Source: Haloterrigena turkmenica DSM 5511 (GTDB lineage: Archaea; Halobacteriota; Halobacteria; Halobacteriales; Natrialbaceae). From it: a DNA stretch of 64,000 nucleotides. Made by a program: the position numbers and the translations under genes. How positions within the stretch are numbered: the stretch's first letter is position 1; each line of letters begins with the position of its first letter. Shown here in pieces: positions 50,805 to 53,575 of the stretch. The stretch covers positions 1 through 64,000 of the forward strand of contig NC_013743.1 of assembly GCF_000025325.1 (NCBI RefSeq), written 5' to 3'. Under the pieces are notes generated by a model. That model did not search any database. It saw nothing but the letters and a program-made list of their open reading frames with translations, and was not told the DNA's origin.

Positions 50805-51395
50805 ATGAACGATAAGACCGAGGAACTCCGCGATATCTTCACCGACGTCACCGATGGCGAGGAAACCGTCACTGAATCCCAGGAGAACTCCCGCGGCTCG
50901 CTCGAGCGCGACGACCGATCGGACGAAGAGCGCCTCGAGAGCGTCGTCCAGCAGATGCGCGAGCGCTACGCGTTCGAGACGCCGCTGACGGACGACGAAC
51001 TCATCGCGGTCGCGAGAGGCTTCTACGACGACGAGGACGACACCGACATCGCCGTCGACCTCGACGTCGACGCGGAGACGGTCTTCGAGGCCCGCATGTC
51101 GCTGCACCTCGTGGGCGAGGACGACGCCGACGAGGTCGACCTCGCGGCGATCCGCGACCGCGAGGAAGACGACGCCACCCTCGCAGACGAGTACGACGTC
51201 AGCGAGCCCCAGATCCGTCGCTACCGCCGCGTCGCCGCCGCCGAGGACGAGTCCCGCGCCGCCAACGACCGCTACCGCGACGAGTTCGACAGCATCCTCG
51301 CCGACGCCGAACTCTCCGAGCGCATGACCACCGACGTCCGCGAGGACGGCCTCGAGGACGCCACCGAGGGGATGGAGACGGACGTGGAGTTCTAA
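50805..51395 (+). CDS. Conserved haloarchaeal protein, conditioned-medium-induced protein 4 type
   Basis: This 196-residue acidic protein begins MNDKTEELRDIFTDVTDGEE, which I recall as the opening of proteins named conditioned-medium-induced protein 4 in haloarchaea; that name describes induction, not mechanism. Residues about 55-160 contain two helical repeats, TPLTDDELIAVARGFYDDED with IAVDLDVDAETVFEARMSLH, and DATLADEYDVSEPQIRRYRR, the latter resembling a helix-turn-helix. DNA binding is therefore possible. A TATA box 28 bases upstream and a strong hairpin terminator downstream frame it as a single-gene unit. Confidence 0.7.
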   Translation: MNDKTEELRDIFTDVTDGEETVTESQENSRGSLERDDRSDEERLESVVQQMRERYAFETPLTDDELIAVARGFYDDEDDTDIAVDLDVDAETVFEARMSLHLVGEDDADEVDLAAIRDREEDDATLADEYDVSEPQIRRYRRVAAAEDESRAANDRYRDEFDSILADAELSERMTTDVREDGLEDATEGMETDVEF

Positions 51396-51496: not shown

Positions 51497-51653
51497 TACT
51501 ACTGCTCGTGCTTCCACACAGTACGGCCGCTGTACTCGCAGCCAAGATAATCGCTCCGTCTCTATTCGGGACGACTATCCGTGCCCGACTCGAGACGGTA
51601 TCGCCACCAGCGCTGCACGAGACTTTATACGAGAACGGGCGGCCAGACGGCCC

Positions 51654-52349
51654 GTGTCTCGAGCCCTCGTCCCCTTCAGCGATCTGCGAACGGCCGCGTA
51701 CTGCGCCCGGAAGTGCTACTATCAGCGGACCGGCGACGACGTCGATCGCGAGCCGCCGCCGTCGGTCGAGCGGATTCGGGATCTCGAACGGCGGTACGAA
51801 GACCTGCTCGAGGCGCCGACGGGTGCACTCGAAGCTGAACCGATCGCCGTCGAGCCCGTACAGTATCGCGAACGTCTCGGTGCGACTCGAGATCGTCTCA
51901 CCGCGGCCAGTGACTGGAAGCGATTGCGTGAACCGAGCGAACGGAACGTCTACGCCGCCGGTAAAGACTGTCACGGCGTCGTCCACAAAGTGCTCGCGAA
52001 CCCGATCGAGCCGGTGCTGGTGTCGTCGGGCGAACCGCCGTCGGACGGGGTCTGGGAGTCTCAGTCGGTCCACGCCGTCGCGGCCGCGAAGGCGTTGGCC
52101 TGGGAGCACGAACGAGAAATCGATCGCGCGTGGATCGAGTATCCCGCCCGCGGTGTCGTTCGCTCCCTCGAGTTGACGACGCGTCGCAAGGCCCGCTACC
52201 GACGCGCGCTCCGGACGGTGTGGGACCTCGACGGCCCACCCGCCCGCACGACGAACCGCTCGAAGTGCGAGTCCTGCGAGTTCGCCGCCCAGTGTGGCGT
52301 CCGGACCCGAACCTTGCGCTCGCTGTTACCCGGATTCGGATCGGGATAA
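51654..52349 (+). CDS. Lone Cas4/RecB-like protein with degenerate nuclease site
   Basis: This 231-residue protein is read from GTG 51654. It keeps Cas4-type iron-sulfur cysteines: an early FSDLRTAAYCARKCYYQR and a late KCESCEFAAQCGVRTR. The RecB-family catalytic segments look lost: where Cas4 has GxxD it reads GVVHKVLA (Asp to His), and where it has PVExK it reads PVLVSSGEP (Glu and Lys absent). The motif-III-like helix is AAAKALAWEHEREIDRAWI. No cas1, cas2 or repeat array is near. It may bind DNA or an Fe-S cluster without cutting. The family call rests on spacing of motifs and is moderately sure. Confidence 0.65.
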   Translation: MSRALVPFSDLRTAAYCARKCYYQRTGDDVDREPPPSVERIRDLERRYEDLLEAPTGALEAEPIAVEPVQYRERLGATRDRLTAASDWKRLREPSERNVYAAGKDCHGVVHKVLANPIEPVLVSSGEPPSDGVWESQSVHAVAAAKALAWEHEREIDRAWIEYPARGVVRSLELTTRRKARYRRALRTVWDLDGPPARTTNRSKCESCEFAAQCGVRTRTLRSLLPGFGSG

Positions 52350-52875: not shown

Positions 52876-53484
52876 TCAGTTCGCCTCGAGCCACGCCTCG
52901 ATCTCGTCGGCCAGCGCCCCGCGGCGGTGGATCGTCTCGGCCTCGAGGTCGACGACGGTGCTCGGGACCGTCTCCTCGATCGATTCATACAGGTCGTCGG
53001 CCTCGAGGACCACCGCCTCGTCCAGCACCTGTTGACCGATATCCTCGACTCGCCGTGCACTCGGCTCCCCGCTGACGTTGGCGCTCGTGGCGGTGACGGG
53101 GCGCTCGGCGGCCTCGAGAAACCGGAGCGCCGGCTCGCAGTCGGGGACCCGAATACCGACCCGATCGCGACCGGCCGTGAGGACGTCCGGGAGTGCCTCG
53201 GTGCGCTCACAGAGCAGTGTCACGGGACCCGGGAGGAACTCGTCGGCGAACGCACGCTCGCGCTCGCTCGCGCGGACGTACCCCTCCTCGAGAGCCGTCT
53301 CGAACGTCGGCACGGCGACGGAGACCGGTTTCGACCGATCCCGTCCCTTGGCCTCGAAGACGCGCTCGACGGCGTCGGCGTCGAGTCCGTCGGCGCCGAG
53401 CCCGTAGACCGTCTCGGTCGGATACACAACCAGTTCGCCCGCGCGGATCGCTTCCGCGGCGCGCTCGAGGTCGTCGTCGTCCAT
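52876..53484 (-). CDS. Threonylcarbamoyl-AMP synthase (Sua5/YrdC family)
   Basis: This 202-residue enzyme makes threonylcarbamoyl-adenylate from Thr, bicarbonate and ATP for t6A tRNA modification. The YrdC signature is VVYPTETVYGLGADGLDADA followed by RVFEAKGRDRSKPVSVAV, then LPGPVTLLCER, VGIRVPDCE and TATSANVSGEPSARRVEDI. Length suits the YrdC/TsaC core without the Sua5 C-terminal domain. ATG 53484 (MDDDDLERA) is preferred to an in-frame ATG at 53511. Partners Kae1/Bud32 are not in the window. Confidence 0.92.
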   Translation of the reverse strand: MDDDDLERAAEAIRAGELVVYPTETVYGLGADGLDADAVERVFEAKGRDRSKPVSVAVPTFETALEEGYVRASERERAFADEFLPGPVTLLCERTEALPDVLTAGRDRVGIRVPDCEPALRFLEAAERPVTATSANVSGEPSARRVEDIGQQVLDEAVVLEADDLYESIEETVPSTVVDLEAETIHRRGALADEIEAWLEAN

Positions 53485-53575
53485 ACTCGCCTCTCGCCGC
53501 GGCGGCGTCAAAAACGTAGCGTCACGTTGTCCGCTCGGTCCACAGAGCGGGGCGGTGCCCGGCCCGCGAGCCGTG

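Follow-up and report, generated by a model that had tools for sequence, protein, structure and literature searches.

The Cas4 proteins Pcal_0546 and SSO0001 carry their cysteines in a 1+3 layout, and replacement of single catalytic residues (D, E, Q or Y in Pcal_0546; D, E, K or Y in SSO1391) leaves mutants that are almost inactive (PMC4176176). A survey of the Cas4 family suggests that all Cas4 proteins are active (PMC5704561). In the Sulfolobales, pili and a DNA importer are induced together after DNA damage (PMC11868833). Here we describe a Cas4-like gene of Haloterrigena turkmenica DSM 5511, which lies at positions 51654 to 52349 of the 64,000-nucleotide stretch that was analysed (the window; the start of contig NC_013743.1). 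Its product keeps the cysteines of Cas4 and has lost the catalytic residues, and its promoter carries a short element that is also found in front of other haloarchaeal genes. We consider it a serious possibility, if one just short of probable, that the protein is a dead Cas4 that binds single-stranded DNA (ssDNA) within a haloarchaeal DNA-uptake or DNA-exchange regulon.

Fold and nuclease site of the Cas4-like protein

An earlier note, made from the sequence alone, had described the product as a stand-alone Cas4-like protein, and the structure prediction agreed with this description. The AlphaFold model, built with 59 sequences (mean predicted local distance difference test score 90.2, predicted template modelling score 0.85), adopts the RecB-like PD-(D/E)XK fold of Cas4. 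Foldseek followed by VIA-align ranked Cas4 first and also returned AdnA, Dna2, Exo5 and other RecB-like nucleases. The best solved matches were Cas4 chains of Cas4-Cas1-Cas2 complexes, with Z 16.7, root mean square deviation (rmsd) 3.7 and 180 aligned residues for 7mi4_A (Cas4/Cas1/Cas2), and Z 14.9, rmsd 5.3 and 183 residues for 8d3l_I; the values for SSO0001 (4ic1_A) were 10.8, 3.6 and 159. In sequence searches the TIGR00372 cas4 profile matched the 231-residue protein with an E-value of 3.7e-8 at 33.4 bits, below its curated cut-off of 65, and PF01930 did so with an E-value of 0.02 at 15.4 bits, short of its cut-off of 22.7. Alignment of the family to seven haloarchaeal CRISPR Cas4 sequences with hhalign gave a probability of 96.5. 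With the fold and the purifying selection described below, the TIGR00372 match and this alignment go beyond coincidence. Against PDB sequences phmmer found no match and a profile search gave a single marginal one, 4r5q (E 0.62).

The family has one N-terminal and three C-terminal cysteines, as in Cas4. The claim in the earlier note that four cluster-type cysteines are kept stands for C17, C205, C208 and C214; the two motifs it cited, YCARKC and CESCEFAAQC, contain five, and C21, the second cysteine of YCARKC, falls outside the positions conserved in at least 80% of relatives. This pattern suggests that an iron-sulphur (Fe-S) cluster may be assembled on the haloarchaeal protein.

To compare the nuclease site we used a joint MAFFT alignment of 50 haloarchaeal sequences (46 core and four divergent), 40 non-halophile homologues picked by hand from a phylum sample, and ten haloarchaeal CRISPR Cas4 proteins. 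Eight of the ten CRISPR proteins keep GxxD...ERK, and the remaining two belong to a different Cas4 type, for which the alignment in this part is poor. Among the core haloarchaeal sequences the aspartate of GxxD is missing in 45/46, with histidine in its place in 40/46. Column 124, where the glutamate of motif III is expected, is serine in 41 of the 46, and column 126 is glycine in all of them. The hhalign register against the seven CRISPR proteins agrees with MAFFT, placing H opposite D, S124 opposite E and G126 opposite K. The register of motif III is uncertain, since a first reading had put E and K at L122 and S124, but neither register holds an acid or a lysine, and the reading of GVVH and PVLVSS in place of GxxD and PVExK is upheld. 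Column 137 holds, in Cas4, the aspartate that directly precedes the QhxxY motif; all 46 core sequences have Q or H there, and the Q and Y of that motif are missing as well. No aligned motif I histidine was found, the window protein having no histidine before residue 107. Across the core haloarchaeal sequences, then, the cysteines are kept and D, E and K are lost, and the protein is very probably dead as a nuclease.

In eight pairs of close relatives the ratio of nonsynonymous to synonymous substitution rates was 0.19-0.39, which shows purifying selection. The protein has an isoelectric point (pI) of 8.77, against 4.05-5.09 for ten neighbours, and over 50 relatives the median is about 8.7 (range 4.79-10.2). 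A basic protein in acid proteomes suggests a nucleic-acid ligand, and we consider it quite likely that this Cas4-like protein binds DNA or RNA. The proposal that the Fe-S shell without the nuclease serves a new role is probably correct, given the kept cysteines and the lost GxxD and ExK, and the pI makes DNA binding plausible. DNA-end sensing, one of the roles named in the note, is possible.

Age of the loss and distribution of the gene

The same note had treated the changes as erosion of this one protein, and here the wider comparison told against it: the loss is old and clade-wide, and the catalytic glutamate is already missing in 40/40 non-halophile homologues. At that column these homologues have K or R in 38/40 and E in 0/40, while the aspartate of GxxD is kept in 33/40. 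Column 137, 13 residues after the K or R of column 124, is D or E in all 40 and could replace the lost glutamate in these relatives. A relocated triad of this kind was rejected for the haloarchaea on the strength of the Q or H found there. Of the four divergent haloarchaeal members, three retain D and three retain K. Provided that the register is right, we infer that the glutamate was lost first and the remaining catalytic residues later. Because the non-halophile relatives already lack the glutamate, the loss appears both ancient and stepwise, and by sequence comparison it is fixed in the haloarchaeal clade.

In the tree the haloarchaea form one side of a branch (100/99) and are joined by nine non-halophile sequences (90/86), although the tree carries a long-branch warning, an unsettled bootstrap and a midpoint root only. 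Sua5 is present in the locus of eight of these nine sequences and in 82/100 haloarchaeal loci, which supports orthology.

The gene was found in 56 of 61 genomes (our own and 60 relatives). None of the 50 with a completeness of 90% or more lacks it, and the five genomes in which it is missing are all incomplete. By comparison, cas1 is present in 17/61 genomes and in 16 of the 50 near-complete ones, and a canonical cas4 above cut-off in 17/61. Our own genome (99.99% complete) has no cas1, cas5 or cas7, cas2 not having been searched for, and the window has no CRISPR-like repeated 22-mers, in line with the earlier observation that neither a CRISPR array nor cas1 is near. Across the phylum sample, 208 of 294 genomes had a match to the family profile, as did 173 of the 234 near-complete ones; the non-haloarchaeal matches may include ordinary Cas4. 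The best 80 of 274 relatives in a related-locus search were all haloarchaeal by title, or apparently so, and no relative was found within the viral contig, phage and plasmid collections. Like archaeal solo-Cas4, the gene lies outside cas loci and shows mostly vertical inheritance. We conclude that haloarchaea inherit it vertically as a core gene of the chromosome, whether or not they have cas1.

In one genome (G041) the orthologue is split on a single contig: the promoter element and residues to about 74 are followed, after some 33 kb, by the remainder in the same orientation. The insert holds genes that by eye resemble type I restriction-modification and is bounded, also by eye, by an 11-base-pair inverted repeat. 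Bacterial competence genes are frequent insertion targets of mobile elements.

A promoter element and the genes behind it

The TATA-like box sits 30 bases before the start codon, which makes the start codon itself the probable start of transcription. Between the two lies the sequence GCGGCCA, which at -20 to -7 of 127 haloarchaeal orthologues is exact in 57 and within one mismatch in 100, compared with 0/466 and 5/466 upstream of the ten neighbouring genes. The first promoter pattern that we scanned gave four matches against two for its control and was too closely bound to the Cas4-like gene. With TTTWTA-N9-GCGGCCAGA we obtained 14 matches in our own genome against 13 in the control at up to two mismatches, three of them exact, two of these besides our own gene. 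A refined pattern, developed from TTTATA-N9-GCGGCCA, gave nine sites against none for the reversed pattern; it was written after the sites of the preceding scan were known, so that this count is not independent; those in the relatives are independent. Across 37 genomes the refined pattern gave 240 sites against 12 for the reversed control (summed rows), with a site in 33 of the 37.

We inspected 76 sites in 69 stretches, comprising 60 regions from 13 genomes, chosen by hand among the listed sites, and nine regions of our own genome. The hand-chosen regions omit several sites with three mismatches, and the tallies of downstream families are minimum figures. A start codon of an open reading frame (ORF) of at least 40 residues lies at exactly +30/31 in 54/76 sites, compared with 3.1% of random positions. 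It is likely from these scans that the Cas4-like gene belongs to a shared regulon. One genome (G014) contains seven copies of the element that are followed by a start codon and a near-immediate stop, and these have the look of a repeated element. We found no paper on this Cas4 branch or on the promoter element among the open-access PMC papers listed by our searches, and a term search of the available text of a haloarchaeal core-protein paper (PMC3287961) gave no match.

The downstream genes were grouped by BLAST clusters and by Pfam and NCBIfam scans (Table 1), and several are import-like genes that have the cis-element in common. Members of the family of about 60 residues, noted at eight loci, lie in several cases on small contigs, and the three that were scanned had no Pfam match. 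In the NucS_N-like proteins, seen at five loci, a domain like the N-terminal domain of NucS is joined to a zinc ribbon that replaces the nuclease domain, and this is perhaps a second disarmed nuclease. The 55-residue ORF, seen at four loci, has the conserved C-terminus R-M-[ND]-N-A-Y-A-R and is a possible leader peptide. Around the Cas4-like gene itself, the acidic upstream gene, the Cas4-like gene and Sua5 make up a block that is conserved across haloarchaea, with Sua5 near in some non-halophiles too. When the genes around 20 non-halophile homologues, 113 in all, were scanned with Pfam, no single partner emerged beyond Sua5/DUF5612-type neighbours.

Table 1. Features of the Cas4-like locus and gene families found behind the promoter element
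Feature	Position	Strand	Remarks
Acidic 196-residue protein of unknown family, upstream	50805..51395	+	pI 4.05; tblastn match in 84/100 haloarchaeal loci; no Pfam match
TATA-like element TTTATA	51624..51629	+	30 bases before start codon
Conserved element GCGGCCAGA	51639..51647	+	At -15; common to other genes; promoter comparison, pattern scans
Cas4-fold protein, very probably nuclease-dead	51654..52349	+	GTG start; 231 residues; own leaderless-type promoter
C17, first Fe-S ligand position	51702..51704	+	50/50 relatives; 40/40 outgroup
H111-K112 at motif II D position	51984..51989	+	H111 shared by 40/46 core orthologues, K112 by all 50 haloarchaeal sequences
L122-G126 at expected motif III (E-x-K)	52017..52031	+	No acid or Lys in either alignment register
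C205, C208, C214, C-terminal Fe-S ligand positions	52266..52295	+	50/50, 49/50 and 50/50 relatives; 40/40 each in outgroup
Sua5/TsaC (t6A synthesis), convergent downstream	52876..53511	-	82/100 haloarchaeal loci; 9/20 non-halophile loci; TIGR00057
Secreted PLD-type nuclease	behind element		At least 7 loci
T2SSE ATPase	behind element		At least 7 loci; nearest TadA, yet below TadA cut-off
Small proteins of about 60 residues	behind element		At least 9 loci
NucS_N-like protein with zinc ribbon	behind element		At least 5 loci; Pfam score just below cut-off
55-residue ORF ahead of RPA	behind element		At least 4 loci; RPA at fixed +169/170
Rad3/DinG-like helicase	start at +66 to +75 from site		At least 5 loci
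Secreted-looking proteins of about 120 residues	behind element		At least 4 loci
DUF7382, pilin-like	behind element		At least 3 loci
DUF7310	behind element		At least 3 loci
DUF7283	behind element		At least 3 loci
DUF7311	behind element		At least 1 locus
TctA permease	behind element		At least 2 loci, plus one site from earlier own-genome scan
PDDEXK_5	behind element		At least 2 loci
HNH-repeat	behind element		At least 2 loci

Proposed role and comparison with known systems

Most likely the dead Cas4 would bind ssDNA or DNA ends, without cleaving them, in what was once the cleft of the nuclease. Its production would be coupled to that of a DNA-uptake or DNA-exchange apparatus, made up of the pilus/secretion-type ATPase, the pilin-like proteins, the surface PLD-type nuclease and the permease, through the shared promoter element between TATA box and start codon, to which one regulator putatively binds. 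Partners that handle ssDNA, RPA and the Rad3/DinG-like helicase, would be made alongside. Such a programme would place the surface apparatus and a nuclease outside the cell, then the permease, and finally RPA, helicase and dead Cas4 inside, where they may serve a pathway of DNA import or recombination. The downstream parts fit an uptake or exchange programme of this kind, for which the pili and importer of the Sulfolobales offer an analogy. That uptake or exchange is the purpose of the regulon we hold only tentatively. More doubtful still is the full proposal of an unrecognised haloarchaeal DNA-uptake/exchange regulon, marked by a TATA-proximal GCGGCCA, in which the dead Cas4 is a dedicated ssDNA-handling factor and counterpart of bacterial competence proteins, its nuclease disarmed stepwise from before haloarchaeal divergence.

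Several observations weigh against the reading of the gene as a dead Cas4 within such a regulon. The gene is interrupted in the near-complete genome G041, which is counted within the 50, and so is dispensable there. No qualifying start at +30/31 was found for 22/76 inspected sites; for five of these an ORF begins at +28, +29 or +32, and for the other 17 no ORF begins within the tested range. Of the 17, five precede the Rad3/DinG-like helicase by 66-75 bases and seven are similar short stretches from one genome. Three mismatches are present in 29/76 sites. DUF7283, a marker of some pilus clusters, occurs in 31/50 near-complete genomes against 50/50 for the Cas4-like gene, so there is no strict coupling between them. 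The 55-residue ORFs, the proteins of about 60 residues and the homing-endonuclease-like genes have no obvious fit to DNA uptake, and the invariant K112, E162 and R170 could together form a new active site.

The alternative that survives best, though we think it rather unlikely, is that the regulon is a DNA-damage response and that the dead Cas4 serves repair, not uptake, by protecting or holding the ends of ssDNA. The Ups and Ced systems of the Sulfolobales are damage-induced (PMC11868833), and both RPA (four loci, at +169/170) and the helicase (five loci, at +66 to +75) stand behind the element, but the secreted PLD nuclease, the pilus-type ATPase, the pilin-like proteins and the TctA permease have functions at the surface or in import. 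It is also possible that repair and exchange are one system.

A housekeeping role tied to Sua5/TsaC, in which the basic surface would bind tRNA or another RNA, seems unlikely. Most haloarchaeal loci have Sua5 nearby in convergent orientation, and eight of the nine non-halophile loci with Sua5 belong to the sister clade in the tree; convergent genes, however, do not form one transcript, synteny can outlast any shared function, and the element was found upstream of Sua5 in 0/52 cases within one mismatch. Equally improbable in our judgement is that the protein is still an enzyme with relocated or new residues. K112, E162, R170 and Y48 do not vary among the 50 haloarchaeal sequences, and the non-halophile relatives mostly retain the GxxD aspartate and all have an acid at column 137, whereas the core haloarchaea are without the motif II aspartate (45/46), both residues of ExK, the column-137 aspartate and the Q and Y of QhxxY, and single changes at catalytic residues already leave Pcal_0546 and SSO1391 almost inactive (PMC4176176). 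A CRISPR accessory or the anti-CRISPR-like decoy of the earlier note, for which the Cas4 fold speaks, is very improbable for a core gene present with or without cas1, in our own genome without cas5 or cas7 as well, and a phage or anti-CRISPR origin was rejected given the lack of relatives within the viral contig, phage and plasmid collections.

Relatives that lack the glutamate and haloarchaeal forms that lack D, E and K may serve as a series in which to follow the change of a nuclease into a binding protein that retains its Fe-S cluster. Should the promoter element prove to be what it seems, it would also provide a candidate gene list for haloarchaeal DNA uptake or exchange.

Among described systems, the Cas4 proteins of CRISPR adaptation (SSO0001, Pcal_0546, type I-C Cas4 and the Cas4/Cas1 fusion 7mi4) have the same PD-(D/E)XK RecB-like fold and 1+3 cysteines, whereas the haloarchaeal protein lacks the catalytic D/E/K and a cas1 partner, is core chromosomal and is basic. 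The archaeal solo-Cas4 proteins (Hudaiberdiev et al. 2017, PMC5704561) are likewise stand-alone, vertically inherited and present without CRISPR; unlike these proteins, suggested to be all active, the haloarchaeal branch has lost its catalytic residues. The Ced and Ups systems for DNA exchange in the Sulfolobales similarly combine co-regulated pili, DNA transfer and DNA processing (PMC11868833), while the haloarchaeal set is delineated solely by its shared promoter element. For a dead, DNA-binding Cas4 we found one precedent, the nucleocapsid protein TP1 of TTV1, also an inactivated Cas4 derivative and a presumed non-catalytic DNA binder, in which the motif III glutamate has become arginine, resembling the K or R of the non-halophile relatives (PMC4625639). 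TP1 is viral, split and without an Fe-S cluster (PMC4625639), whereas the haloarchaeal protein is found in cells, is generally unbroken and retains all four cysteines.
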